DNA from: Thiogranum sp.
GTDB lineage: Bacteria; Pseudomonadota; Gammaproteobacteria; DSM-19610
Direction: 5' to 3'
DNA length: 64,000 nucleotides
Assembly (NCBI GenBank): GCA_022340245.1
Contig: JAJDOI010000063.1
Coordinates: forward strand, 1 to 64,000
Below, piece by piece: positions 19,205 through 52,400 of this stretch. Within the stretch, counting starts at the first letter, position 1; each line of letters begins with the position of its first letter. Both the position numbers and the translations under genes were made by a program. The notes beneath the pieces are model-generated. The model was given only the letters and a program-made list of their open reading frames with translations. It was not told the origin of the DNA and ran no database searches.

Positions 19205-21190
19205 ATGGCCTCTCGTAAAGACCTTGCCAATGCCATCCGTGCGCTGAGTATGGATGCCGTTCAGAAAGCCAAGTCCGGTCACCCGGGCGCGCCCATGGGC
19301 ATGGCGGATATCGCCGAGGTGCTGTGGAACGATCACCTGAAGCACAATCCTGCGAATACCAAATGGGCCGACCGTGATCGTTTCGTTCTGTCCAACGGAC
19401 ATGGCTCCATGCTGATCTATTCGCTGCTTCACCTGACAGGTTACGACCTGTCAATCGATGACCTGAAGAACTTCCGTCAGCTGCATTCCAAGACCCCCGG
19501 TCATCCGGAGTACGGTTACGCGCCGGGCATCGAAACCACCACCGGCCCTCTGGGCCAGGGCATCACCAATGCCGTCGGTATGGCCATTGCCGAGAAGGTG
19601 CTCGGCGGTCAGTTCAACCGCGACGGGCATCACATCGTCGACCACTACACCTGGGTGTTTATGGGCGACGGCTGCATGATGGAAGGTATTTCCCACGAGG
19701 CCTGTTCGCTGGCCGGCACACTGGGCCTGGGCAAGCTGATTGCGTTCTGGGATGACAATGGCATTTCCATCGACGGTCATGTCGAGGGCTGGTTTACCGA
19801 CGACACCCCCGGGCGTTTCGAAGCTTACGGCTGGCACGTGGTCCGCGAAGTCGACGGTCACGACCCGGCGGCGATAGACAAGGCGATTCACGAAGCCAAG
19901 TCCGTGAACGACAAGCCTACCCTGATCTGCACCAAGACTGTTATCGGCTACGGCGCACCCAACCTGTGCGGCAGCCACGATTGTCACGGCGCACCGTTGG
20001 GCGACGACGAGATCAAGGCGACCCGGGAAAACCTGGGCTGGAACCACGACCCGTTCGTGGTTCCCGACGACATCTATGCGGGGTGGAATGCCAAGGGCAA
20101 GGGCAGCGACGCGGAAAAGGCCTGGAACGACAAGTTCAACGCCTATCAGGCCGCGTACCCTGAGCTGGCCTCCGAGTTCGAGCGTCGTGTAGCGGGCGAG
20201 CTGCCGATAAACTGGACGGAAGGCGCCAACGGCTTCATCGCTGCGGTCAACGAAAAGGCCGAAACGATTGCCTCGCGCAAAGCGTCGCAGAATGCACTGA
20301 ACGGCTTCGGTCCGCTACTGCCTGAATTTCTCGGTGGTTCCGCCGACCTGGCCGGTTCCAACCTGACAATCTGGTCGGAGTCGAAAGGCATCAGCAATAC
20401 CGTGTCGGACGGCAACTACATCTACTATGGCGTACGTGAGTTCGGTATGTCCGCTATGATGAACGGTATTGCCCTGCATGGCGGGTTCATCCCCTACGGC
20501 GCAACCTTCCTGATGTTCTCGGAGTACGCGCGCAATGCCCTGCGTATGGCGGCGCTGATGAAGATTCAGAGTATCTTTGTCTACACACACGACTCCATTG
20601 GCCTCGGCGAAGACGGTCCGACCCACCAGCCGGTGGAGCAGACCGCGACCCTGCGCATGATACCCAACATGTCCGTCTGGCGTCCTTGTGATGCAGTCGA
20701 ATCTGCCGTGTGCTGGAAAGTCGCAGTTGAACGCACCGACGGCCCCAGCTGTCTGATTTTCTCCCGCCAGAATCTGGCCCACCAGAATCGCGACGCGGAG
20801 CAGATTGCCAACATCGAGCGTGGTGGTTACATCCTCAAGGACTGCGCCGGGGCGCCGGACGTCATCGTCATCGCTACTGGCTCGGAAGTAGACCTGGCCG
20901 TGCAGGCCGCCACCCAGAGCGGCAGAAAGGTGCGCGTGGTGTCCATGCCGTCTACCGATGTCTTCGACGCGCAGGACGAAGCTTATCGAGAATCGGTGCT
21001 GCCTGCTGCGGTGACGGCGCGCGTGGCTGTCGAGGCTGGTGTGACCGACTACTGGCGCAAGTACGTGGGCCTGAACGGCAGCGTGATTGGCATTGATCGC
21101 TTCGGCGAGTCCGCCCCGGCCGGCGACCTGTTCAAACACTTTGGCTTTACGGTGGAGAACGTGGTTGCAGCGATCGACGCGGTGGCCTAG
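19205..21190 (+). CDS. tkt: Transketolase
   Basis: [36 protein letters not shown]...[18 protein letters not shown]...[23 protein letters not shown]-binding motifs. Confidence 0.97.
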
Positions 21191-21230
21191 GGCCCCGGAG
21201 GCAACCGGATTTTTTCTACGTTCATAGTAA

Positions 21231-22250
<1,020 letters not shown>

Positions 22251-22385
22251 TTAGTCGCTTGTGAGACTGTGGGGCGTGTCGGGTGCCGCCTGACCCGCCC
22301 CACACGCTCTCTCGCCGGTTTCAGAGGCTTTTGGTAAACCCGACGTTTAGCAAGAGATTTTGAACATTATTTTGGAGTGTCTGTC

Positions 22386-23564
22386 ATGTCTTTCATCAAG
22401 CTCACCGATCTGGATCTCGCTGGTAAGCGCGTACTGATTCGCGCTGATCTCAACGTGCCTGTCAAGGACGGCAAGGTGACATCGGATGCCCGTATCAGCG
22501 CATCCATGCCGACTATCGAGCACTGCATGAAGGCCGGTGCCAGGGTCATGGTCATGTCGCACCGGGGCCGTCCGCAAGAGGGCACCGTGGACGAGGAAAA
22601 TTCCATGCAGCCGATCGCCGACGATATGTCCGTCAAGCTGGGGAAGACGGTGCCACTGGTGAAGGGTTATCTCGATGCCGCGCCGAGCGTCGCCGATGGT
22701 GAGGTGGTGCTGCTGGAAAACGTGCGCTTCAATGCGGGCGAAAAGAAGGACGATGAGACGCTGGGGAAAAAATACGCAACCCTGTGTGACGTGTTCGTAA
22801 TGGACGCTTTTGGTACAGCGCACCGTGCCCAGGCCTCGACACACGGCGTAGGCAAGTTTGCGCCCGTCGCGTGCGCAGGGCTGTTGCTGGCCGAGGAACT
22901 GGACGCGTTGAACAAGGCGCTGGCCAACCCGGCCCGCCCGATGGTTGCGATTGTCGGCGGTTCAAAGGTCTCTACCAAGCTCACCGTGCTGGAGGCGCTG
23001 TCCGAGAAGGTTGATCAGCTCGTGGTCGGCGGCGGCATCGCCAACACGTTTCTAAAGGCTACCGGCAAGAATGTCGGCAAGTCGCTATGCGAAGACGATC
23101 TGGTAGATACCGCCAAGGCTCTGATAGAAAAAATGACGGCGCGTAGTGCCAGCATTCCGATCGCCATCGACGTGGTCTGCGGCAAGAAGTTCGACGAAAA
23201 CGAACCGGCGGTGCTCAAGGATGCCGGCGATGTCGAGGATGACGATATGATTTTCGATATCGGTCCCCAGTCGGCACAGGAGTTGGTTGATATTATCAGC
23301 AAGGCCGGCACCATTGTCTGGAACGGGCCGGTCGGGGTGTTTGAATTCGATCAGTTTGGCGAGGGCACCCGGACCATTTCCATGGCTATCGCCAATGCAC
23401 CCGGATTCAGCCTGGCCGGTGGCGGTGACACCATTGCCGCCATCCAGAAATACAATATCTACGACAAGATTTCGTATATCTCCACGGCCGGCGGCGCTTT
23501 TCTCGAATTTCTGGAAGGCAAGACCCTTCCGGCCGTGGCGATGTTGGAAGAGCGCGGAAAATAA
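22386..23564 (+). CDS. pgk: Phosphoglycerate kinase
   Basis: [37 protein letters not shown]...[19 protein letters not shown]...[18 protein letters not shown] 22386 preferred. Confidence 0.97.
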
Positions 23565-23636
23565 CAACGCGACGGACGCGGAACGCGGTTGTCCGCAGTC
23601 GTGACCGTCAATAGTGGGTGGCCAGAGTAGTTGAGC

Positions 23637-25082
23637 ATGCAGCGTAGAACGAAGATAGTCGCAACCCTCGGGCCGTCCACAGACGATTCCAAGGTGCTGG
23701 ACGACATGATTCAGGCCGGTGTTGACGTAGTGCGGGTCAACTTCTCTCACGGTACCGCCGAAGAGCACTTGCGGCGCGCCGAACAGGTGCGCAATCGCGC
23801 GCGCGCACACGGCCGGCAGGTCGGAGTGCTCGCCGACCTGCAGGGGCCGAAGATCCGTATCGAAAAGTTCAAAGACGGCAAGGTCAATCTTCAGGAAGGT
23901 GCGCACTTTGTGCTGGATGCCACTCTGGAGCCCGATGTCGGTACCGAAGAGCGCGTGGGAATCACCTACAAAGAACTCACCGACGACGTGAATCGGGGCG
24001 ACACCCTGTTGCTTGACGATGGTGCGGTGGTTCTGTGGGTCGAGGAGGTCAGCGGCCGGGAGATTGTTACCCGCGTGGTGGTCGGCGGCATATTGTCCAA
24101 CAACAAGGGTATCAATCGCCAGGGCGGCGGACTGTCCGCACAGGCGATCAGTGAAAAGGATCGTGCCGATATCAAGGTCGCTGCACAGATGCAGGCGGAC
24201 TATATCGCCGTGTCTTTTCCGCGCTACGCTGCCGATGTCAACGAGGCCCGTGAACTGCTGCGGGCGGCGGGCGGTCATGGTGGCATCGTCTCCAAGATCG
24301 AGCGCGCCGAAGCCCTGGACGCCCTGGAAGAGATCATAGAAGCCAGCGACGTGGTGATGATCGCGCGCGGTGATCTCGGTGTGGAAATCGGCGACGCCGA
24401 GCTGCCGGCGGTGCAGAAGCGTATCATTCACATTGCCCGCGCCATGGACCGCGTGGTGATTACCGCGACGCAGATGATGCAGTCGATGATCGAGAACCCT
24501 ATCCCTACTCGTGCCGAGGTTTTCGACGTGGCCAACGCTGTCATCGACGGCACAGACGCGGTCATGCTGTCGGCGGAGACAGCGACCGGTAAACATGTCG
24601 CCAAGGTTATCGAAGCCATGGACCGCATCTGCCGCGGTGCCGAGCGCCAGCGCATTGATATGGTGCCGGAGCGCCGCGCCGCCGTGCACTTCCGGACGGT
24701 GGACGAGGCGATCGCCAAAGCCGCCATGTACACGGCAAACCACACCGGTGTTAAGGCTATCGCTGCCCTTACCGAGTCCGGCGCCACGCCATTGTGGATG
24801 TCGCGCATCAGCTCGGGTATCCCTATCTATGCCTTGACGCGCCATGTCGAGACGCGTAGAAAGGTAACCCTTTATCGCGGGGTATACCCTGTGAGCTTCG
24901 ACGTGACAACGACCGACCACCCCCAGTTGAATCGCGAAGCAATAGATGAACTTAGGCGTCGGAGCGCGGTGCGTGACGGTGACCTGGTCATCATCACCAA
25001 GGGTGATCTGACCGGCGTGCACGGCGGGACCAACGCCATGAAAATTATTCGTGTCGGCGATGAAGTTCTTACCATGGAATGA
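23637..25082 (+). CDS. pyk: Pyruvate kinase
   Basis: MQRRTKIVATLGPSTDD...VDVVRVNFSHGTAEEH...ARGDLGVEI...TATQMMQSMIENPIPTRAEVFDVANAVIDGTDAVMLSAETATGKH. Confidence 0.97.
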   Translation: MQRRTKIVATLGPSTDDSKVLDDMIQAGVDVVRVNFSHGTAEEHLRRAEQVRNRARAHGRQVGVLADLQGPKIRIEKFKDGKVNLQEGAHFVLDATLEPDVGTEERVGITYKELTDDVNRGDTLLLDDGAVVLWVEEVSGREIVTRVVVGGILSNNKGINRQGGGLSAQAISEKDRADIKVAAQMQADYIAVSFPRYAADVNEARELLRAAGGHGGIVSKIERAEALDALEEIIEASDVVMIARGDLGVEIGDAELPAVQKRIIHIARAMDRVVITATQMMQSMIENPIPTRAEVFDVANAVIDGTDAVMLSAETATGKHVAKVIEAMDRICRGAERQRIDMVPERRAAVHFRTVDEAIAKAAMYTANHTGVKAIAALTESGATPLWMSRISSGIPIYALTRHVETRRKVTLYRGVYPVSFDVTTTDHPQLNREAIDELRRRSAVRDGDLVIITKGDLTGVHGGTNAMKIIRVGDEVLTME

Positions 25083-25145
25083 CGCGTCGCACGGCCAGCA
25101 GCACACTGACAACGTTTATTTACTGAAAACTCCGAGGAGACCATC

Positions 25146-26210
25146 ATGGCCCTGATATCCATGCGTCAACTGCTCGATTACGCTGCCGAGAACGAATTCG
25201 GTATGCCAGCCTTCAATGTCAACAACATGGAACAGGTGCATGCCATCATGCAGGCTGCCGATGAAACCGACAGCCCGGTCATCATGCAGGGTTCGGCGGG
25301 TGCGCGTTCCTATGCGGGCGAGCCTTTCCTGCGCCACCTGATTATTGCAGCGACCGAAATGTACCCGCATATTCCCGTCGTCATGCATCAGGATCACGGC
25401 TCCGAACCCGCCGTCTGTCTGCGTTCCATCCAGTCGGGCTTCTCGTCGGTGATGATGGACGGCTCGCTGATGTCGGACATGAAAACCCCCGCGACCTATG
25501 AGTACAACGTTAACGTGACCCGTACCGTGGTGGAAATGGCTCATGCTGGCGGTGTGTCGGTGGAAGGCGAGCTGGGGTGCCTGGGTTCGCTGGAAACCGG
25601 AGAAATGGGTGAAGAAGACGGCCACGGTGCCGAGGGCAAACTGTCCATGGACCAGTTGTTGACCGATCCTGAGGAAGCTGCAAACTTCGTCAAGGAAACC
25701 GGCGTCGACGCACTGGCCATCGCCATTGGTACCAGTCATGGCGCGTACAAGTTTACCCGTCCGCCGACCGGCGACATCCTCGCCATCAGCCGCATCAAGG
25801 AAATCCACGCACGAATTCCCAACACCCACCTGGTGATGCACGGTTCGTCGTCGGTACCTCAGGACTGGCTGGAAATTATCAATACTTTCGGCGGTGACAT
25901 GGGCGAGACCTATGGCGTGCCGGTCGAGGAAATCCAGGAAGGCATCAAGCACGGCGTGCGCAAGGTCAATATCGATACCGATTTGCGCATGGCCAGTACG
26001 GGCGCTATCCGCAAACATCTGGCGGAGAACAAGTCCAACTTCGACCCACGCAAGTTCCTCAAGGCATCGACGGCAGCCATGAAGGATATCTGCAAGGCGC
26101 GTTACGAGGCTTTCGGTTGTGCGGGACATGCCGCCAAGATCAAGCCCATGAGCCTGGAAGTGATGTTCAAGCGTTATGCTTCGGGGGAACTGGATCCGCG
26201 CGTGAACTGA
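25146..26210 (+). CDS. fba: Fructose-bisphosphate aldolase, class II (Calvin cycle type)
   Basis: [54 protein letters not shown]...VVMHQDHG...[17 protein letters not shown]. Confidence 0.95.
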
Positions 26211-27870: not shown

Positions 27871-28770
27871 CTACTTGCCGGCAATATCTTCCAATTGTTT
27901 GGCACGAATGATCTGGCCGTCCAGCGCCGCTTCCTTGGCCGACTTGCCGTAGGCCACCGAGAGCAGGGTGCTGTAGTACACCACCGGCATCTTGAACTTG
28001 GTGCCGTACTTGGCGTTGATCTGGTCCTGGTAGACCTCGGTGTTCATCTGGCACACGGGGCAGGGGGTTACGATCATGTCCGCGCCGTTATCGTAGGCCG
28101 ACTCGATGATATCCTTGATCAGCGCCTGGGACTTCTCCGGTTCCGAGAAGGCCAGTGCGCCGCCGCAGCAGGACACCTTCTTCTCGTAGCTGTCGCAGGC
28201 TTCGGCACCGACCGTTTCGATCATTTTGTCCAGATACTTCGGATTCTCGAACGACTCGCCGTCGATACCGAAGGGACGGTTGGTCTGACAGCCGACATAG
28301 CCGGCGATTTTCAGGCCTTCCAGCGGCTTCTTGACGTGACTGCCGAGTTCTTCATAGCCGATATCCTCGATCAGGACTTCCACCATATGGCGGATGTTCT
28401 TGTCGTTATTCAGCTTCAGGCCGGCTTCGGCCAGGGCCGTGTTGGTTTCCGCCAGCAGGTCCGGGTTAGTGTGCAGGCGTTCCTGGGTTTCCTTGGTGGC
28501 CAGCCAGCAGGCGGCGCAGGTGGCGACAATGTCCTGGCCGGCGTGGGCCTGCTCGGACAGTGCCATGTTGCGCGCCGACAGGGCCAGTCGGGGCAGTTCG
28601 CCGCCACCGGCATAACCGATGGAGGCCGAGCAGCAGTTCCAGTCCGGTATTTCGTTCAGCTCGATGTCCAGTTCCTTGCACATGGTGTCGACCGACACCT
28701 GGTAGTTGGACGAGGACGCGGCTTTCTGGGAGGAGCAACCGGGGTAGAAGGAATAGGATTTCTTTGCCAT
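27871..28770 (-). CDS. hdrB: HdrB-like heterodisulfide reductase subunit B (CCG-domain protein)
   Basis: Two cysteine-rich CCG motifs: ...PDWNCCSASIGYAGGGE... and ...KKVSCCGGALAFSE...PCPVCQMN. Confidence 0.9.
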   Translation of the reverse strand: MAKKSYSFYPGCSSQKAASSSNYQVSVDTMCKELDIELNEIPDWNCCSASIGYAGGGELPRLALSARNMALSEQAHAGQDIVATCAACWLATKETQERLHTNPDLLAETNTALAEAGLKLNNDKNIRHMVEVLIEDIGYEELGSHVKKPLEGLKIAGYVGCQTNRPFGIDGESFENPKYLDKMIETVGAEACDSYEKKVSCCGGALAFSEPEKSQALIKDIIESAYDNGADMIVTPCPVCQMNTEVYQDQINAKYGTKFKMPVVYYSTLLSVAYGKSAKEAALDGQIIRAKQLEDIAGK

Positions 28771-28781
28771 GTCAGTTCTCC

Positions 28782-29405
28782 TTAAGCGCCGCTTTTGCCG
28801 ATGCGGACGTTTTCAAGCTCTTCGGCCTTCTTCAGGATGGCCTGCAGGCCCTTGGCATCCTTGCAGCCGTGGCCGCCAAGCATTTCCATAGGGGTCATGC
28901 GCTTGGTCTTGAGCATGTTGAGGCCAATGTTCTTCATCTTCAGCGCGGTCTTGACGCCTTCGGCGAATCCGTTCATGAAGTACAGTGACAAGCCCAGCTT
29001 CAGCTCGTTGACGCGTCCGGTCTTTGCCAGGTTGTTCCAGAACAATTGCGCGAACTTGGCCGTTGGCTGTTGCTGCGGTGCCAGACCCAGGCGCCTCGAA
29101 TAGGTCGCCAGGCCGTGCATGATGTGGGTGATGGGCAGGCCGCGTGGACAACGGGCGATGCAGTTGTAGCAGGACGTACACATCCACATCGACGTCGACT
29201 CCAGGACTTCCTCGCGCTTGTTGGCGCGGATCATCATGAAGATTTCCTGCGGCGGGTGTTCCCAGTGCGGGCCCAGCGGACAGGAACCCGAGCACACGCC
29301 GCATTGCATGCACATCTTCACCCAGTCGCCTTCTTCCACGTTGTCCGTGACTTCCTTGAGGAAGTTGCCACGGTACTTTTCGATCATTTCATTGTTGTAG
29401 CTCAT
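28782..29405 (-). CDS. hdrC: HdrC-like heterodisulfide reductase subunit C (2x[4Fe-4S])
   Basis: MCMQCGVCSGSCPLGPHWEHPPQEIFMMIRANKREEVLESTSMWMCTSCYNCIARCPRGLPITHIMHGLATYSRRLG. Confidence 0.9.
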   Translation of the reverse strand: MSYNNEMIEKYRGNFLKEVTDNVEEGDWVKMCMQCGVCSGSCPLGPHWEHPPQEIFMMIRANKREEVLESTSMWMCTSCYNCIARCPRGLPITHIMHGLATYSRRLGLAPQQQPTAKFAQLFWNNLAKTGRVNELKLGLSLYFMNGFAEGVKTALKMKNIGLNMLKTKRMTPMEMLGGHGCKDAKGLQAILKKAEELENVRIGKSGA

Positions 29406-29414
29406 GACTCGCTC

Positions 29415-31631
29415 CTAGAACTTGAACGGGCTCAGGCCGATCTTCTCGACAGCCTCGGCCATGTCGTTGATCAGCTGGGGCGCACGGTCGATATCGGTGA
29501 TGGCGACCTCGTAAGTGGAGATGCGCTCTTCCTCGAGGTTCAGCGTTTTCAGTGTTTCGTCGACCTTGCTCATGCGCATCTGCGCCATTTCCGAACCCTT
29601 GACGAAGTGGCACTGGTAGTTCTCGCCCTTCTGGCAACCCATCAGCACGATACCGTCGTAACCGGAGTTCAGCGCGTCGGTGATCCAGATGGTATTGATC
29701 GAGCCCAGGCAGCGGACCGGGATGACGCGGGCCCACTGACTGTAGCTGGTGCCCTGCTGGGCCGCCATGTCGAGCGCCGGGTAGGCGTCGTTTTCGCATG
29801 CCAGCACCAGGATACGCGGCTTCTCGTCGAACTCGTCCGGCATGTCGCAGTTCTTGATCTGCTGGCCCACGCTATCCACCGAGTAGTTCTCGAAGGAGAT
29901 GACGCGCACCGGGCAGGCGCCCATGCAGGTGCCGCAGCGGCGGCAGCGCGACTCGTTGAATACCGGGAAGCGTTTCTCGTCCTCGTCGATGGCGCCGAAC
30001 GGGCATTCGACCGTGCAGCGCTTGCACTGGGTGCAGCCTTCCTTGCGGAAGATCGGGTAGGACAGGTCGCCCGAGCGCGGGTGTGCGGCTCGACCGACTT
30101 TGGCGCTTTCCAGCGACTGGATAGCTTTCAGCGTCGCTCCGGTGGCGTCCTCGATCGCCTGCTGGGTATCCATCGGCCGGCGCACCGGCCCGCAGGTGTA
30201 GATACCGGTACGGCGGGTCTCGTAGGGGAAGCAGATGAAGTGCGAGTCGTTGAAGCCGTACTTCAGGTGCGGCAGGTCCTTGCCCTGACGGTAGTTCAGG
30301 TTGAGGATGGAGTCCACGTTGACTTCCCACTGGCCGGGTTCATTCTGTGGCACCTCGTCGATATCGACGCCCGAGTTGGCCACCATGCCGGTGGCCAGTA
30401 CCACCAGGTCAGCTTCCTCTTCCAACTCCTCGTCGAGGATCAGGTCTTTGAACTTGACCAGCGGGCCGTTGCTGCCGGCAACCACTTCGCTGACTTTGCC
30501 CTTGCGGAACGTGATCATCTTGTCCTGGCCGGAGCGGTAGAAGTCTTCGCCGGGGGCGCCGGGGGTACGCAGGTCGTCGAACAGGATCTCGGTTTCGATC
30601 GCCGGATTCTGGTCCTTGAAGTACATCGCCTGCTTGATGGAGCTCAGGCAGCAGTCGCCGGAGCAGTAGTTCAGGTGCCCTTCCTTGCTGCTGCGCTGGC
30701 CCGCGCACTGCACGAAGGTGACTTTCTTCACTTCCTTGCCATCCGAAGGACGCTTGATGGGGCCGCCATTCGCGGCAATGGCCAGTTGCTCCAGTTCGAC
30801 GCGGTCGACCACGTCCTTGCTCTTGCCGTAACCCAGTTCCGGTAACTTGCCGGCGTCGTACGGTGTTGCACCGGAAGCCTGGATAATGGCGCCGAAGTTT
30901 TCCGTGCTGGTGCCGCCCGATTCGGTGCTGATATCGGCCGAGAAACGGCCGGGCGCGCCCGAGGTCTTGGTGATGGTCGCGTTCAGGTGAACCGTGATCT
31001 TGCCATCCGCCTCGATGGCGGCGACCATCGCGGCCACGCCGGTATCCACCGGATCCGTGTACGGACTGTGCCTGGGCACATCTTTCCACATCTTCCCGAC
31101 CGAGCCGCCGAGTGAGTCGCTTTTTTCCACTACGTGCACGGGATAGCCGGCCTTGGCGGCTTCCAGCGCCGCGGTCATGCCGGTGATACCGCCACCGACG
31201 ACCAGGATGGTGTCGTTGGCGCCCTTTTCCTGCGCCGATGCCGGCGGGGTGGAGTACTTGGCTTCGGCACAGCCCATGCGCACGTAATCGGCCGCCATCT
31301 CCTGGGTGGTTTCGCGCAGATCATCCTCGTCCGGGCGTATCCAGATGACACCCTCGCGCAGGTTGGCACGCGAGATGGTCACGCCCTCGAAGTTGAACGC
31401 TTCGGTCTTGGCGCGGCGCGAGCAGGCGGCGATGACCACCCGGTTGACGCCCTCGTTATCGATGTCGTTCTGGATCATCTTCACGCCGTCGGCCGAACAC
31501 AGGAAATCGTGCTGTTGCGCTACCTGTGCCTTGCCGTCGCGCTTGGCGATGGTGGCAAGTTCGTCGCAGTCCAGGCGTTCGCCCAGACCGCAGCCCTTAC
31601 ATACATACGCTCCGATCTTTATGTCTGCCAC
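29415..31631 (-). CDS. qmoB: QmoB-like FAD/[4Fe-4S] protein (HdrA-like with C-terminal MvhD-like region)
   Basis: Flavin motif VVGGGITGMTAALEAAKAGYPVHVVEKSDSLGG, ferredoxin clusters CTQCKRCTVECPFGAI and CRRCGTCMGACPVRVI, C-terminal MvhD-like region (LACENDAYPALDMAA...RCLGSINTIWITDALNSGYDGIVLMGCQKGENYQC); 738 aa; between qmoA and hdrC. Confidence 0.87.
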   Translation of the reverse strand: MADIKIGAYVCKGCGLGERLDCDELATIAKRDGKAQVAQQHDFLCSADGVKMIQNDIDNEGVNRVVIAACSRRAKTEAFNFEGVTISRANLREGVIWIRPDEDDLRETTQEMAADYVRMGCAEAKYSTPPASAQEKGANDTILVVGGGITGMTAALEAAKAGYPVHVVEKSDSLGGSVGKMWKDVPRHSPYTDPVDTGVAAMVAAIEADGKITVHLNATITKTSGAPGRFSADISTESGGTSTENFGAIIQASGATPYDAGKLPELGYGKSKDVVDRVELEQLAIAANGGPIKRPSDGKEVKKVTFVQCAGQRSSKEGHLNYCSGDCCLSSIKQAMYFKDQNPAIETEILFDDLRTPGAPGEDFYRSGQDKMITFRKGKVSEVVAGSNGPLVKFKDLILDEELEEEADLVVLATGMVANSGVDIDEVPQNEPGQWEVNVDSILNLNYRQGKDLPHLKYGFNDSHFICFPYETRRTGIYTCGPVRRPMDTQQAIEDATGATLKAIQSLESAKVGRAAHPRSGDLSYPIFRKEGCTQCKRCTVECPFGAIDEDEKRFPVFNESRCRRCGTCMGACPVRVISFENYSVDSVGQQIKNCDMPDEFDEKPRILVLACENDAYPALDMAAQQGTSYSQWARVIPVRCLGSINTIWITDALNSGYDGIVLMGCQKGENYQCHFVKGSEMAQMRMSKVDETLKTLNLEEERISTYEVAITDIDRAPQLINDMAEAVEKIGLSPFKF

Positions 31632-31634
31632 GGC

Positions 31635-32921
31635 TTAACCCTCCGCACCGGCAACTCTGTTGACAACCTGGATGGCGCGCAACGCGCTGGCCGTGGCGCT
31701 CTGTACCGCACGGTTTACGTCCAGTGCGTCGGCCGAGCAGCCGGCGGCGAAAAATGCGCCATTGGCTTCGTCCAGTTCCACAAACCCTTCCTCGTTCAGC
31801 ACCACCGGCATGGGGAAACCGTCGGCGGGCACGCTCGGCTCCATGCCGATAGCCAGCACCACCAGTTCGTGCGGGTTGCTGTAGCGGTCATAGCCCTCGG
31901 TGTCCACCCCGTGCAGTACCGGGTTGCCGGTTTCCCGGTCCTCGGTAATCGAGGCGACCTTGGACTTGGTGAAGGTGATGTTGGCGTCGTTCTTCACGTT
32001 CTGATAGAAGTCGTCAATACGGTCGATGGCGCGGATGTCGATGTAATACACCGTACCCTTGGTGTCGTCGCCGTACTGTTCGCGCAGGTAAGTGGTCTGC
32101 TTCAGGCTGGCCATGCAGCAGATGCGCGAGCAGTGCTTGAGATGGTTCAGATCGCGCGAGCCGGCGCACTGGATGAAGGCCACGTCTTTGGCCTCCTTGC
32201 CATCGCTGGGACGCAGGATCTTGCCGCCGGTAGGGCCATGCGGGTCCAGCATGCGTTCGAATTCCACCGAGGTAATGACATTCTTGTAGCGGTCGTAGCC
32301 ATACGGCTGGATCTTGCCCGCATCGTAGGGCTTCCAGCCCGTGGCCCAGATGATGGCGCCGACGGTGATGGTGGTTTCGCTGTCACCCATGTCGAGGTCG
32401 ATCGCCTCGTAGTTGCACGCGGCCTTGGCCTTATCCGCGTCCGCGGTGCCGATAATCGCGGGGTCGAGAACATACCGTTCCGGGTAGGATTGGTTGAACG
32501 GGCGGTAGGCGCCCTTGCGCTTGCCCAGTCCGTAGTTGTATTCGTCGTCGAATTCGGTCTCGACGGCTTCACCGCAGGCGCCGCATGCGGTGCAGTTTTC
32601 GTTCACGTAACGCGGGCGGGTATGCAGGGTAACGCTGTAGTTGCCGGCCTCGCCCTCGATCTTGTTGACTTCGGTCATCGCCATAACGTGCAGGTTGCGG
32701 TTGGTCTTGATCCGGCGGAGGTTGATCTCCAGACCGCACTTGGGGTGGCAGAGTTTGGGAAAATACTTGTAAAGCTGGCTGACACGGCCGCCAATCGATG
32801 GATTCTTCTCCACCAGAATGACCTGCTTGCCGCATTCGGCGGCTTCCAGCGCGGCCGTCATACCGCTGATGCCGCCGCCCACCACCAGAATGGTCTGGTT
32901 GGTTGCGATAACCTCTGACAT
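31635..32921 (-). CDS. qmoA: QmoA-like flavoprotein (HdrA family)
   Basis: VVGGGISGMTAALEAAECGKQVILVEKNPSIGGRVSQLYKYFPKLCHPKCGLEINLRRI...CTACGACGEAVETEFDDEYNYGLGKRKGAYRPFNQSYPERYVLDP; ATG 32921 preferred. Confidence 0.87.
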   Translation of the reverse strand: MSEVIATNQTILVVGGGISGMTAALEAAECGKQVILVEKNPSIGGRVSQLYKYFPKLCHPKCGLEINLRRIKTNRNLHVMAMTEVNKIEGEAGNYSVTLHTRPRYVNENCTACGACGEAVETEFDDEYNYGLGKRKGAYRPFNQSYPERYVLDPAIIGTADADKAKAACNYEAIDLDMGDSETTITVGAIIWATGWKPYDAGKIQPYGYDRYKNVITSVEFERMLDPHGPTGGKILRPSDGKEAKDVAFIQCAGSRDLNHLKHCSRICCMASLKQTTYLREQYGDDTKGTVYYIDIRAIDRIDDFYQNVKNDANITFTKSKVASITEDRETGNPVLHGVDTEGYDRYSNPHELVVLAIGMEPSVPADGFPMPVVLNEEGFVELDEANGAFFAAGCSADALDVNRAVQSATASALRAIQVVNRVAGAEG

Positions 32922-33243
32922 GGGTACTCCTCCGCTCAGAGTCACTTTGACAAAATTAAAAGACAAGACCGGTCGGGAAACCGTTGCAGGTGGGGTGAAA
33001 ATAGTCTCCCTTCGCAGAGGAAGGGTTCATGCACCTTGTTCAGACCGAGACCAAAAAACGGCCTACACGATACCGGAGCACCCAGTGGTTCGCCAGATCA
33101 TGTATATATTAAAGAGCATCGAATCTTTCGATAATAAAATAAGGGTGGTGTATATCACCTTGACTTTGTGGGTGTTGTTGCCGCGAACCGGTAGAAAGGG
33201 TACCGTGTGGCGCTGACTGCCGAAGCCCCACAGGAAATTCGCC

Positions 33244-34056
33244 GTGACAGCGCAAGTACTCAAGCCGGAAGAATATTTTATCACCGAGGAGCCGTATTAC
33301 GAGCCGGTGGGCAACGAGATCGGTGTCTTCGAGGCGGCCTACACCAACCAGCTGCCGATACTGCTGAAAGGGCCTACCGGTTGTGGCAAGACGCGTTTCA
33401 TGGAGCACATGGCCTGGCGGCTCAAACGGCCGCTGATAACCGTCTCCTGCCACGACGATCTCACCGCCGCTGATCTGGTGGGGCGCTTCCTGATTCGCGG
33501 CGGGGAGACCATCTGGGTGGACGGGCCCTTGTCGCGAGCCGTGCGTGCCGGCGGAATCTGTTACCTGGACGAAATCGTCGAGGCCCGCAAGGACACCACC
33601 GTGGTTATCCATCCCCTGGCCGACGATCGCAGGGTGCTGCCCATGGAGAAACTCGGCGAACTGCTGGAGGCGGGCGATGAGTTCTGCATGGCGATTTCCT
33701 ACAACCCGGGTTATCAGAGTGTACTGAAGGACCTCAAGCAGTCTACGCGCCAGCGCTTTGTGGCGCTGAATTTCGACTATCCGTCCGCTGACCTGGAAAG
33801 CAAAATCATCGTCAACGAAACCGGTATCGACACCGCAACCGCCACGCAGCTGGTCAAATTCGCGCAGATGACGCGCAACCTGAAGGGCAGCGGCCTGGAA
33901 GAGGGCGCCAGTACCCGCTTGCTGGTACATGCCGCCAAACTGATGAAAACTGGTGTGAGCCCGGTGGTTGCCTGCCGCGCGAGTATTGCCGAGGCGTTGA
34001 CCGATGACGAAGAAATGTTGATAGCGGTGAACGAACTGAGCGCTTCTGTATTCTGA
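33244..34056 (+). CDS. CbbQ/NorQ/GpvN-family MoxR AAA+ ATPase
   Basis: [122 protein letters not shown] start. Confidence 0.93.
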
Positions 34057-34107
34057 TGCGCCGGCCGCGTGAGCCGATCGGCCGGTTCCTGTTTAAGGAC
34101 GGAACCA

Positions 34108-37100
34108 ATGGTCCAGCTCCCGACTGTTTCCGAGTCCGATACCCACGACGCGCTGGTCGAGGCGTGCGAGGGCTATGCTCTGGTCGATTTCGGCAACGGC
34201 CGCAAGCTCGAACGCTGGGGCGAGTACCTCATCGACCGGCCTGACCGGCTCGCGTGCGGGATGCCGCAGCAGGCTGACTGGCAGTCCGACTGGGTGTACA
34301 TCGACGAGGTCGGGCGCCAGGCACACTGGGAACCTACCCGCGGTGGTCTGCAGCGGGAGTGGGCGGTCGAGGTCGCCGGGCAGACGGTCTGTTGCCGCCT
34401 TGGAAGCGGGGGGCGGGTCGGTTCGCACCCGCGCGACTGGGTGTGTGGTGCCTGGGTGCGGGCGCGTATCGACGGTTGTTATGACCTCGAAGATCTTAGC
34501 GTGTTGAACCTGTTCGGTGGTAACGGCTTCGTCACGGCCCAGGCGCTGGCGGCCGGTGCTGCGGTCGTTCACGTCGATGCGAACGAGGAAATGCTGGCGC
34601 TGGCGCGCGCCAATGCCGGCGAGCAGCATGCCGAGTACGTGCGCGACAATGTCATGGATTACGTCGAAGCGCTGCTCAGGCGTCAACGGCGTTTCGACAT
34701 GATCGTCCTGCCCTGTCCGGCGTTGGGCCATGGCCCCCGGGGGCAGTTGTGGGATCGCGAAGTCGATCTGCCGAAGCTGATGAGATACCTGCCGCGGTTG
34801 ATCACCGAAAACTGCCTGGGTATCTGGGTGTCCACCGATAGCGGGGCGATCACCTGGAAGGCTGAAAGCCTGGGTCAGTTGTTGCGTGAAGTGCTGCCCG
34901 GATGCACCGTAGAGCCGTTGCACCTCGGGGTTAAGAGCGGCGACGGGCGGGTGCTGGCCGCGGGCGTGGCGGCGCGCTGGTTCGATGAAACCGAATTCCT
35001 GCAGACCGGCGGCATGCCGCTAACCGCCGGGCAACTGGAAGAGCGCCTCGATGCGCATATGGTGTCGCTGGGCGCTGCTGAAGAGCCTTCGCAGGCGCTG
35101 GCCGAGTTTCCGCGCAGTACCCAGGATTTTGTTTTGCGCAACGCCGCCATGGTTGGTCGTACCAGTTCCGGCATGGCTTTCAATTTCGTCAACCACGTCT
35201 GCGGCGCATTGCGCGTCATGGACGAAGACGGTGTCGAGGCCTGGCTGTTGCACTGCATGGATATCTACGACACGCGCGGTTTGCACCCGGCGGTGGCGGC
35301 CTTCAAGGACGCCGAAGCGTTTGCCCGCCAGTACAAGGCGCGCCGCACCGGTCTCGCGCTCGACGAGGTTGTCAACGTGCTGGAAGGCTTCGTCCATGGG
35401 CTGAGCGGGCGGCGACTCAAAATCGAGGCGGGTGAGCAGACATATACGGATACCGAGGTGCTCTATCTGCCGGCAACCGTTAGCCGTTTTCCCGACCGCG
35501 ACGCGAATTTCCAGCTCTACAAGGCGATGGTGGTGTACCTCTGGGCGCAGACCTGGTACGGCACCTGGCGTCAGGATATTCCCGCTGCGCTGGCGGAGTT
35601 CGCTGAATATGACAAGGCTTTGGGGCGCTTCCACGCACTGGAAACGCTGCGCCTGGAGGCCAGGATTCGGCGCAGTCTTCCGGGGGTATACCGGCAGATG
35701 GCGGCATTGCGCGCCGACTGTCCGCTGCCCGATCACCCGGCCTGGCGGCGCGCGGCCGAGTGCCTGTCAGAGGATGGAGCCAGCGTCGCAGACAGCCTGA
35801 CGCTGATCGCGGAGGTGATGGATGCACCCCGGCCCGACGCCGTCGTCTACCAGGGCGTACTCGAGCCGATCAAAGTGGCCAAGACCCGCGAAGCGCGCAT
35901 CGAGGCGGACAAAAAGGCGTTTCGCCTCGGTCTGTTGCGGATGCAGAACGACCTCGACAAGTCGCGGGCGGAGGCGGAAGGAGAATCCGAATCGACCAGT
36001 GACGAAAACCCCGAGAGCGAGCACACGGTCAAGTTACGCGAAGTCGTATCGGAAGACACCGCCGACGGCTTCGCTTACGAAATCGAACTCGACGGCCGGC
36101 CGATTCCGGCGCCGGACAACGTCAAGGGTACCATGGCGTCCATTCTTCAGGACCTGGGTGACATCCCGGAAGACTACCTGCAGGCGGCCGGTGACGGCGC
36201 CTATTTTGCCGGCGATACCGGTGAGCGCAGCGTCGAGGACGTGTGGAAGGGTACCTACCACGAGGAAGGCGCGTTTATCTACAACGAGTGGGACTACGAA
36301 CGGCAGCACTATCGTAAAAACTGGGCGGTACTGCGTGAACTCGACGTGCACCCCGGTCACGACCATTTCGTGGACAAGGCGCTGCACAAGTATCGCGGCC
36401 TGGCCATGGAGCTGCGGCGCACGTTCGAGGCCCTGCGTGGCGAGGACAAACTGTTGAAGAAACAGCCGAACGGTGAGGACGTGGATATCGATGCACTGGT
36501 CGAAGCGGTTGCCGACACCCACCACGGCGAGGAAATGACCGAGCGCCTGTTTACCAAGCTGCACAAGCCGGAACGCAATATCGCGGTCATGTTCATGGTC
36601 GATATGAGCGGATCGACCAAAGGCTGGATCAACGACGCCGAACGCGAGGCGCTGGCGCTGTTATGCGAATCACTGGAAACGCTCGGCGACCGGTACGCCA
36701 TCTACGGCTTTTCCGGCATGACGCGCAAACGCTGCGAAGTTTACCGGGTGAAGTCCTTCGATGACCCTTACGGGGAGGAGGTCAAGGCGCGCATCAGCGG
36801 TATCCGGCCCAAGGATTACACGCGCATGGGTGTGACGATCCGTCACCTGACGCAATTGCTGAACGAAGTGGACGCGCGTACCAAGCTGCTGATTACGCTC
36901 TCCGACGGCAAGCCCGACGACTATGATACCTACCGCGGCGCCTATGGTATCGAGGATACGCGCATGGCGCTCATCGAGGCAAAGCGCAGCGGTATTCATC
37001 CCTTCTGCATCACCATCGATACGGAAGCGCGCGATTACCTGCCGCACATGTACGGCGCGGTGAACTACGCGGTGATCGACGAGGTGCGCAAGCTGCCGCT

Positions 37101-37137
37101 GAAGGTTTCGGATATTTACCGGCGGTTGACGAGCTGA
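34108..37137 (+). CDS. Fusion protein: N-terminal RlmI/COG1092-like SAM-methyltransferase region plus C-terminal CbbO/NorD-type VWA protein
   Basis: N-term ALVDFGNGRKLERWGEYLIDRPD and LNLFGGNGFVTAQALAAGAAVVHVDANEEMLALARANA (class I MTase motifs); C-term NIAVMFMVDMSGSTKGWINDAEREALALLCESLETLGDRYAIYGFSG...LITLSDGKPDDYDTYRGAYGIEDTRMALIEAKRSGIHPFCITID (MIDAS, NorD/CbbO-like). ATG 34108 preferred over GTG 34069. Confidence 0.85.
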   Translation: MVQLPTVSESDTHDALVEACEGYALVDFGNGRKLERWGEYLIDRPDRLACGMPQQADWQSDWVYIDEVGRQAHWEPTRGGLQREWAVEVAGQTVCCRLGSGGRVGSHPRDWVCGAWVRARIDGCYDLEDLSVLNLFGGNGFVTAQALAAGAAVVHVDANEEMLALARANAGEQHAEYVRDNVMDYVEALLRRQRRFDMIVLPCPALGHGPRGQLWDREVDLPKLMRYLPRLITENCLGIWVSTDSGAITWKAESLGQLLREVLPGCTVEPLHLGVKSGDGRVLAAGVAARWFDETEFLQTGGMPLTAGQLEERLDAHMVSLGAAEEPSQALAEFPRSTQDFVLRNAAMVGRTSSGMAFNFVNHVCGALRVMDEDGVEAWLLHCMDIYDTRGLHPAVAAFKDAEAFARQYKARRTGLALDEVVNVLEGFVHGLSGRRLKIEAGEQTYTDTEVLYLPATVSRFPDRDANFQLYKAMVVYLWAQTWYGTWRQDIPAALAEFAEYDKALGRFHALETLRLEARIRRSLPGVYRQMAALRADCPLPDHPAWRRAAECLSEDGASVADSLTLIAEVMDAPRPDAVVYQGVLEPIKVAKTREARIEADKKAFRLGLLRMQNDLDKSRAEAEGESESTSDENPESEHTVKLREVVSEDTADGFAYEIELDGRPIPAPDNVKGTMASILQDLGDIPEDYLQAAGDGAYFAGDTGERSVEDVWKGTYHEEGAFIYNEWDYERQHYRKNWAVLRELDVHPGHDHFVDKALHKYRGLAMELRRTFEALRGEDKLLKKQPNGEDVDIDALVEAVADTHHGEEMTERLFTKLHKPERNIAVMFMVDMSGSTKGWINDAEREALALLCESLETLGDRYAIYGFSGMTRKRCEVYRVKSFDDPYGEEVKARISGIRPKDYTRMGVTIRHLTQLLNEVDARTKLLITLSDGKPDDYDTYRGAYGIEDTRMALIEAKRSGIHPFCITIDTEARDYLPHMYGAVNYAVIDEVRKLPLKVSDIYRRLTS

Positions 37138-49437: not shown

Positions 49438-52400
49438 ATGGGAGCGGCAAAAAAACTAATTGATAAGAAAGTGTTACGGGACCTTGTTCCTATCAATGCG
49501 CTCTCGCCAATGCATCTCGAAGAGATTTCCAGAAAGGCTGTCATCGAAGAGGTACGTTCCGGTACCTATGTGTTTAAAAAAGGTGATCGTGATGCTCAGA
49601 CCGTATATTTGCTGGACGGGGAGGTAGAGCTTGTCGACGAACGCCGGGATATTGTCGACACGGTAACTGCGGGGACAGAAACCGGTTTCCACCCCCTTGC
49701 GCATCAGCAGCCGCGACAACTCGGGGCACGTGCGGCCGGAAAAGTCACCGTCGCACGCGTTGATTCCAGTCTGCTGGACGTGCTGCTGACCTGGGATGAA
49801 TCCGCAGGCTACGATGTCGTCGAAATCGACGCCGAGGACGACGATGACTGGATGACTCGCATGCTGCAGTCGCAGGCCTTTCTGCAACTGCCCCCATCGA
49901 ATATCCACCAGCTGTTGATGCGCCTGGAGGCGATCGACGCCGATGCCGGCGAGGTCATTGTGCGCCAGGGCGACGAAGGCGACTATTTCTACATCGTGAA
50001 AAGCGGCCGTCTGGCCGTGACCCGCAAAGCTTCCCCGACCAGCAAAGACGTGTTGCTCGCAGAGCTCGGTGAGGGCGCTTGTTTTGGCGAAGAGGCGCTG
50101 GTTTCCGAGGCAAAGCGCAATGCGTCGGTGGTCATGCTCACCGAAGGGTCATTGATGCGGCTGTCAAAGGACGACTTCAACGAACTGCTGTGCGCCTCGC
50201 TGGTGCACGAAACGGACTTTGAGGGGGCGCAGACACTGGTTTCCAAGGGTGCCAAATGGCTGGATGTGCGGCTGCCCGGCGAGTTCGAGAACCAGGCCGT
50301 CAAAGGCAGCGTAAACCTGCCGCTGTCGGCGTTGCGCGAGCAGTGTTCGGAAATGGATCGCGGTACTGACTATATCGTCTGCTGCGATACCGGCCGCCGC
50401 AGTGCCGCGGGAGCATTCGTCCTCAGTCAGCGCGGTTTCAACGTGTACACGCTGAAAAACGGCCTGATGGGCGTGCCTGCCGAAGAGCTCATCTCCAGAC
50501 TTCGCGGCGAGACCGCCGCGTCTTCCAGGGACGCCGACATTCTCCCGTTCGAGGCCGAAAACCGACCGGATGCCCCAGCCGAGACACGCGGCGCCGGGCG
50601 GCATGGCCAGGATACGCCTGCCGATATCGCGCTGATTGACAGGATCGCAGCGGCGGAAAGCGACAAGCTCGCGCTGCAGCAGCAGTTGGAGCAGCTGAAG
50701 GCACAGCTTGCCGGGGCTGAAGACCGTGTGAAAACGGCCGAAGCCGCCCAGCAGGAACACCAGTCGCGCCTGCAGGCGTTCAAACAGGAAGTCGGCAGCA
50801 TCGGCGCCCAGCTAGCCGAGCGTGACCGCCAGTTCGAGCAGCGCAGTGCCGAGGCGGCGCAGGAGAAAAAGCGTCTTGAGGACGAATTGGCTGCCGCCAG
50901 GGAGGGCCTCGAGGCCGGTCGCACGCGCCTGGAAACGGCCGATAGCGAAAGGAGCATCGTCCAGGAGGAATTGACCCGCCTGCAGCAGACGCTGTCGCAG
51001 ATCGAGGCGTCGGCCGAGGGGCGCGATGACGCCCTGCGCCAGGAGCTCGAGCGAATGGCCGAGCATCTGAAAACCGAGCAGCAGCGCTACGACAAGCAGA
51101 CGCGCGATCTTGAAGATGAGCTCGGGCGGCTGCGCAACGATTACCAGCAACTGGGTCAGCGTACCAGCGCCGTCGCCGGAGAACGGGACGCGGCAAACCA
51201 GGAACTGAAGGAGGTCACGCAGCAGCTTGACACCCTGCACGAGCAGCTCAACAGCGGCCAGAGTGAAAGCCGCGAGGCTCTGGAGAAGCTGCAGCAGAGC
51301 CTGAGTGAGCGTGAACAGGCGTTTGCGGCCGAGCAGACCGAAGCCCAGCGGTTGAGGGTGCGGCTCGAAGAAGTCGAAGCTGACTACCGGAAAATCGAGC
51401 AACAGATGAACGCCGCTACCGAGCAGGAGGCGGGCCTGGCGTCGCAGGCATCCGAGCTGCAGGCGCGCCTCGACGATTCGGCGCGCGAGCGCGAGGAGCT
51501 TGAGGCGTCCCTGCAGGGTGCGAATCAGCAGCTGGAAGCCTCGCAGGGGGCGTTGCAGGAAGCCCGGGAGCAGTTGCAACAGCAACGTTCCGACGCTGCC
51601 GGCGAGGTCCAGGAGCTGAGCGGGCAAATCGCAGACTTGCAGCATCAGCTCGAACAGACCAGCGGCGAGATCGGCGCCGAGCGGGACGCGTTGGCGCAGC
51701 GTGTCGAACAGCTGCAGCAGGAACTCGAGGCAGGTCAGCAGGAGCGGGAACAACTGGAGCAGGCGCGAGATGCGGCCGCATCCGAAAAGGATGGCCTTGC
51801 GGGGCAGCTGCAGACCGCGCAGCAGGCCCTCGAAGAACAGCAGCAACAGGTAGCGGCGGGTCAGGCGGAGCGCGAAGCGCTCGAGCGGCAACTCGCCGAA
51901 GCCCAGGCGCAGATCAGCGAGCAAGCCGGGCATGAGCGGCAGCTCCAGGAGCAGTTACAGGCGCTCGGTAAGCAACAGGAGGAACACAGCGCCGGGCTTG
52001 CATCGTCCGAATCCGAACTCAACCAGCTGAGGGAAAAGCATGCGGATGCCGAGCGTCGCAACCGCGAGCTGGAAACCAAACTGGTATCGCTCGGCCAGGA
52101 ACACAAATCGGATCTTACCAGTGCCCGGGAGGCAATCAGCCGCGCACAGACCGAAACGGAAAACGTGCAGCGCGAACAGACGCGCCTGATGGCGTCGCTG
52201 CGCAAGGCGGAACGCAATCTCGAGAACGAGCGTCACGACCACGAATCAGAAGTCTACCGCCTGCGCAAACAGCTCAAGGACGCGGCGGGCGAATCCAATG
52301 CCGGCCTGGCGGCTGAAATGGAGGCCTTGCAGAGCAAGCTGAAGGAAGACAGCAGGGCCCGGGACGACCTGGAGATCAAACTCGGCGAGCGCAGTGCGCA

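Follow-up and report, generated by a model that had tools for sequence, protein, structure and literature searches.

What kind of machine is encoded where a single reading frame joins a methyltransferase-like region to a VWA protein of the NorD/CbbO type, next to a MoxR AAA+ ATPase? The question arises from one stretch of Thiogranum sp. DNA (GCA_022340245.1, contig JAJDOI010000063.1, positions 1 to 64,000), referred to here at its full length of 64,000 nucleotides as the window. The reading favoured here on sequence comparisons and gene context, to which we give a probability of about 0.5, is that the locus encodes a NorQ/NorD-type MoxR AAA+/VWA pair serving sulfite oxidation by Qmo/APS-reductase, with a SAM-fold accessory module that is probably non-catalytic. 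The two genes at its centre are:

33244..34056, + strand: NorQ/CbbQ-type MoxR AAA+ ATPase, 270 aa (AAA_5 3.7e-31, CbbQ_C 2e-29)
34108..37137, + strand: methyltransferase-NorD fusion protein, 1009 aa

The single frame of about 1009 codons described in the initial annotation is intact and uninterrupted. An alternative GTG start at 34069 would give an N-terminus longer by 13 aa; the ATG at 34108 is the likely start, since the MVQLP encoded there is also the N-terminus of four close orthologs (L035, L038, L041 and L042) and AAGGA lies immediately 5' of it. The same two-domain architecture recurs in about 17 other genomes, all gammaproteobacterial. The 369 genomes scanned from the class yielded ten more full-length fusions (L006-L015) and two that are interrupted by contig ends (in G067 and G186), bringing the fusion genomes to 13 with the host; five further fusions (L035-L039) came from a separate genome collection, in MAGs labelled Thiogranum, Thiohalobacter, Ectothiorhodospiraceae and Gammaproteobacteria. 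Treating the interrupted cases, L053/L094 (G186) and L055 (G067), as separate genes was rejected, and they are counted as fused, because contig ends truncate them. Met303 at the junction is variable among orthologs, so that a separate NorD has no conserved internal start; together with the recurrence of the fusion, this excludes a sequencing error joining two genes as well as a conserved internal start. The fusion is seen in Gammaproteobacteria only, since 399 further genomes of the phylum gave, apart from the host, no fusion but unfused relatives covering residues 302-1009 of the query. Frames of 1004-1033 aa in G355 and G259 were considered as a second fusion and rejected: over the N-terminal 300 aa they gave no match to a methyltransferase, and the sequence there looks like norQ read in a shifted frame. 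A search of plasmids returned partial matches below 60% identity, none of which spans 80% of the query.

The N-terminal part of the fusion protein comprises the following features:

34108..34995, + strand: methyltransferase-fold module, residues 1-296 (by 2igt sequence match, AlphaFold2 and Foldseek)
34504..34527, + strand: SAM-binding motif I, LNLFGGNG, residues 133-140, conserved family-wide including 2igt
34711..34734, + strand: degenerate motif IV, PCPALGHG as against DPPxFGRG, residues 202-209 (as aligned to 2igt, G060 and the stand-alone proteins)
34750..34767, + strand: WDREVD, residues 215-220, an instance of the W-D/E-x-x-x-D motif that every fused or stand-alone member shares

A methyltransferase fold is present over residues 22-291, which match nearly the whole chain of the SAM-dependent methyltransferase Atu0340 of Agrobacterium (2igt; E 1.8e-24); in Pfam, Methyltransf_25 scores above its cut-off in the module. 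Residues 1-326 were modelled by AlphaFold2 with a pLDDT of 74 and a pTM of 0.79, and the best Foldseek match is again 2igt (E about 1e-22), with RlmI 3c0k and relatives next in rank. The RlmI/COG1092-type fold proposed earlier for the N-terminus is thus confirmed, with the refinement that by both sequence and fold the closest relative is of the Atu0340 type and RlmI (3c0k) comes second. The PUA-like label did not survive: no PUA model of Pfam matches the fusion protein at E<=1, and the GNGRKLERWGEYLIDRPD stretch aligns to the N-terminal region of 2igt.

Of 18 fusions, 16 no longer have the Asp of motif IV, that of the window among them, and carry P, S, R, Q or N in its place; in the window's clade the motif has become PxP, and the Pro following the Asp position is gone as well. 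DPP is retained in the fused L045 and L047 and in all stand-alone relatives, and appears to be ancestral with 2igt and a distant relative as outgroup. The module is nevertheless under constraint and not decaying, as judged from a dN/dS of 0.16-0.26, compared with 0.13-0.18 for the NorD part (unsaturated pairs; NG86 at dS near 1, hence rough values). These patterns suggest that the module probably still binds SAM, that it most likely no longer methylates in the window's lineage and that it may serve as an accessory docking or regulatory domain. The loss of motif IV in most fusions also fits the initial annotation's suggestion of a repurposed target-recognition domain, a reading that must explain the many unfused orthologs without the module as well as L060, which lacks it and is nested among fused proteins in the tree.

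The module may instead be an active methyltransferase that modifies the client of the AAA+ motor (an Apr or Qmo subunit) or rRNA by means of other residues, e.g. the W-D/E-x-x-x-D motif. The conserved motif I, the purifying selection and the DPP of the stand-alone relatives and two fused members all speak for such an activity, as does the distribution of the family: it occurs in 17 of the 369 genomes, among them one distant relative and three in which the module stands alone (G132, G245 and G094). All three are devoid of the NorQ/NorD pair, and persistence under these circumstances suggests an activity of its own. Set against this are the replaced Asp in 16 of 18 fusions and the missing Pro in the window's clade, and we regard an active enzyme in the fusion as rather doubtful.

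The remainder of the fusion protein has the layout of a complete NorD:

34996..36264, + strand: NorD N-terminal and linker regions, residues 297-719 (placed by the tblastn start points of unfused orthologs)
36265..37134, + strand: C-terminal part of NorD, containing the VWA domain, residues 720-1009
36601..36615, + strand: MIDAS DMSGS, residues 832-836, with T905 (at 36820) and D933 (at 36904) as additional ligands

Similarity to unfused orthologs begins at about residue 302-320 in tblastn, and residues 720-1008 match NorD (9qhd) with an E of 1.3e-53; Pfam VWA_2 (7.2e-5) stays below its cut-off. A full-length AlphaFold2 model reached a pLDDT of 40 and was set aside. The MIDAS residues D832, S834, S836, T905 and D933 are unchanged in six orthologs and make up the complete DxSxS-T-D that defines the full MIDAS of NorD (PMC13036017), bearing out the earlier description of a full NorD-like VWA protein. 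The norQ gene lies directly upstream of the fusion gene, and the H2i motif of its product agrees with GRXLL/IXXXXT, the H2i element to which the NorD finger docks (PMC13036017). With its CbbQ_C domain, H2i motif and complete MIDAS, the window pair thus carries the parts needed for the NorQD mechanism.

In a tree of 73 rows, the window protein falls into a clade clearly apart from both the NorB-linked NorD and the CbbO1 of the host, with CbbO1_L076 as a far outgroup, although branching within the clade is resolved only in part. This placement and the adjacent NorQ uphold the notion of a distinct AAA+/VWA system with an upstream MoxR partner. The CbbO identity that had been considered, on the other hand, is not borne out: CbbO1 branches outside this clade, whose loci have no RuBisCO neighbour and which is present in genomes without a RuBisCO match. 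The host encodes other members of the family: CbbO1 with CbbQ beside cbbL (contig C101), NorD with NorQ beside norB (C146), and a NorD on C30. The latter (L074:638-2674, + strand) is a fourth NorD paralog with no NorQ neighbour; it belongs to a 13-row clade of its own that is common to several sulfur oxidisers, and a GST-like gene and a ferredoxin/FAD oxidoreductase gene surround it.

What the pair may act on is indicated by the genes upstream of norQ, on the opposite strand:

31635..32966, - strand: qmoA-like flavoprotein, divergent to norQ (FAD_oxidored; conserved neighbour)
29415..31631, - strand: qmoB-like protein with FAD, 4Fe-4S and FlpD domains (FlpD 8.5e-38; genome-wide co-occurrence)
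28782..29405, - strand: hdrC-like 4Fe-4S protein (Fer4_8)
27871..28770, - strand: hdrB-like CCG-domain protein (CCG 7.6e-18)

These qmo genes, divergent to the pair, are the strongest clue to its role and had gone without mention in the initial annotation. When neighbourhoods were mapped with homology markers on about 80 loci, norQ was divergent to qmoA-qmoB-hdrC-hdrB in 11 fused loci, the window included, and an unfused pair lay near qmo in 13 further loci; in some other unfused loci, norQ-norD have no adjoining qmo. In G045, the qmo genes are located between norQ and the fusion gene, with aprA adjoining, and in the complete genome G574, aprB-aprA-norQ-norD are consecutive on one strand.

Other neighbours point elsewhere. 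The fusion lies next to a Cu-ATPase gene in L036, L037, L042 and L044, and in L036 also next to a COX1 gene; the Cu-ATPase-linked fusions, which adjoin a terminal-oxidase cluster, form one sub-clade, which includes G264 and G369. Together with the homology to NorQD, these loci would favour a heme-copper enzyme as client, i.e. a nitric oxide reductase or cbb3 oxidase as in classical NorQD. This seems improbable for the window, because no terminal oxidase is found near it, the host has the separate NorQD beside norB, and the association with qmo/apr is far broader. The degP and nrdJ genes found downstream in many loci could likewise designate the class II ribonucleotide reductase encoded by nrdJ as the client; nrdJ remains in place where norQD and qmo have been lost (L051, L052 and L128) and hence looks like syntenic background, which makes this option very unlikely.

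Several observations on the surroundings stand apart from the question of the client. Related proteins adjoin aprA in two loci (L050:17823-18758 and L076:14612-15490, both - strand), that of L050 with a CxxCxxCC (zinc/iron-chelating) domain; they are possible candidates for APS reductase accessory proteins. In the window, a run of sugar-phosphate genes upstream of qmo (19205-26210, + strand) resembles transketolase, GAPDH, PGK, pyruvate kinase and aldolase, names that were given by sequence reading only, and 49438-54378 (+ strand) encodes a 1646-aa protein with an unusual mix of two cyclic-nucleotide-binding domains, a rhodanese domain and a C-terminal FGE-sulfatase domain.

The link to qmo extends beyond gene order. 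AprA lineage II has been described to accompany qmo, and lineage I to accompany aprM (PMC2211403); AprA matches in our genomes split into two score groups (>1040 bits and <~1000 bits), which we read as these published lineages, assignment being by score group. Lineage II is found in 46 of 49 carriers of the pair as against 32 of 320 other genomes (369 genomes; Fisher p 9e-34), and QmoB in 42 of 45 carriers tested as against 12 of the 26 pair-less AprA-II genomes (p 1.4e-5), p-values that are indicative only and overstate independence, because many genomes are related or MAGs. The second comparison ties the pair to Qmo and not to AprA-II alone. Seen from the side of AprA, members of the clade occur in 46 of 78 lineage-II genomes, in none of 31 with lineage I only and in 3 of 260 others; a single genus shows the same split, with the pair in two lineage-II genomes, the host and G205, but not in the lineage-I genome G080. 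Outside the class but within the phylum, AprA is found in 11 of 16 carriers, and QmoB in 13 of the 14 tested for it.

These data also bear on a possible role of the pair as RuBisCO activase (CbbQO), for which the CbbQ_C-positive ATPase and the presence of RuBisCO in 44 of 49 carriers could be cited. Among RuBisCO-positive genomes, however, the pair tracks AprA-II (42 of 44 versus 21 of 132), two genomes that are 97% and 100% complete (G264 and G360) have the fusion and AprA but no RuBisCO match, a form I probe detects no RuBisCO gene near any locus of the clade, and the host keeps its separate CbbQO beside cbbL. An activase function is hardly to be expected.

The history of two loci may be counted in favour of a Qmo/APS-reductase client. 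In G132, a C-terminal remnant of NorD continues in frame beyond the stop of the stand-alone methyltransferase, with a NorQ remnant upstream and degP-nrdJ intact downstream; the in-frame NorD remnant and the NorQ remnant make the gene most likely a deletion or fission product of the fusion. The genome has a lineage-I AprA and no QmoB match. In G311 (L128, 8106-8651), fragments of qmoB and norD stand back-to-back beside nrdJ, the fossil of a divergent qmo/norD locus. Both cases would represent joint decay of the pair and qmo. Since many NorQD pairs have no module and the module persists without NorQD, the module is separable in both directions.

The association has its exceptions. Twelve AprA-II genomes have QmoB without the pair, which is therefore not obligatory for Qmo/AprA-II. 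Two fusion genomes with AprA, G264 and G369, gave no match for NorQ or QmoB and lack any CbbQ_C protein; in G218 the pair occurs although neither AprA nor QmoB was matched, and six genomes carry the pair, as a separate clade, in the absence of AprA. The NorQ-less fusions, the oxidase-side loci, the pair-less AprA-II genomes and the AprA-less clade all limit the notion of a pair dedicated to Qmo/Apr.

How might a pair serving Qmo/APS-reductase work? In NorQD, the NorQ hexamer grips the finger of NorD, and it is proposed that the client is held by the MIDAS site or linker together with the N-terminal domain and that rotation drives metal insertion (PMC13036017, PMC9976466). By analogy, NorQ and the fusion protein presumably form a complex in which the NorQ hexamer would grip the VWA finger of the NorD part, the MIDAS site would help to hold the client, presumably Qmo or AprBA, and ATP-driven rotation would remodel it, leading to cofactor insertion or reactivation. 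The N-terminal module could aid docking or regulation, perhaps with SAM bound. More tentative is the specific version of a dedicated Qmo/APS-reductase maturation or reactivation machine, in which the decayed methyltransferase would bind SAM or SAH without methylating and gate or target the AAA+ motor. To our knowledge, it is not settled how Qmo and dissimilatory APS reductase gain and keep their flavins and Fe-S clusters, nor how Qmo works in the oxidative direction. If the assignment is correct, a central step of the sulfur cycle would obtain a named, testable maturation or quality-control factor, and NorQD-type machines would extend beyond nitric oxide reductase and RuBisCO; an AAA+ adaptor with a methyltransferase fold attached would, moreover, be a rarity. 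A literature search found, among the papers it covered, no description of a qmo-linked NorQ/CbbQ or of a methyltransferase-MoxR-VWA system, which suggests that a NorQD-type pair with an added methyltransferase-fold domain and a link to a sulfur pathway is apparently undescribed.

Among known systems, the module shares its fold over the full length, as well as motif I, with the Atu0340-type methyltransferases (2igt; PF10672), from which the window's clade differs by the absence of the motif IV DPP and by the fusion to NorD. The RlmI/RlmO 23S rRNA m5C methyltransferases (3c0k, 4dmg), of which RlmI acts on C1962, are the second-closest fold family; compared with them, the module has no detected PUA domain and an altered motif IV, and it scores 20.5 bits against an NCBIfam cut-off of 712 bits. 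NorQ/NorD of cytochrome c nitric oxide reductase (9qhd; PMC13036017, PMC9976466) has in common with the window pair the MoxR AAA+ ATPase with CbbQ_C and a finger-docking H2i and the VWA domain with complete MIDAS, whereas the window pair belongs to a separate clade, is linked to qmo/apr and not to norCB, with no NorB near the window and the norB-linked pair on another contig, and has the methyltransferase fold as an extra N-terminal part of NorD. The RuBisCO activase CbbQ/CbbO follows the same VWA logic with an ATPase of the same MoxR subfamily, but the window's clade is separate from it, has no RuBisCO neighbour and occurs without RuBisCO. AprA belongs to the fumarate-reductase flavoprotein superfamily. 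RavA/ViaA, a MoxR-VWA pair for which binding to the fumarate reductase flavoprotein subunit has been reported (PMC10585395), differs in its MoxR subfamily and in lacking a methyltransferase module; it shares the theme of a MoxR-VWA pair reported to act on a flavoprotein/Fe-S respiratory complex, and a client with flavin and Fe-S clusters, for example AprA or QmoA/B, would thus have a precedent.
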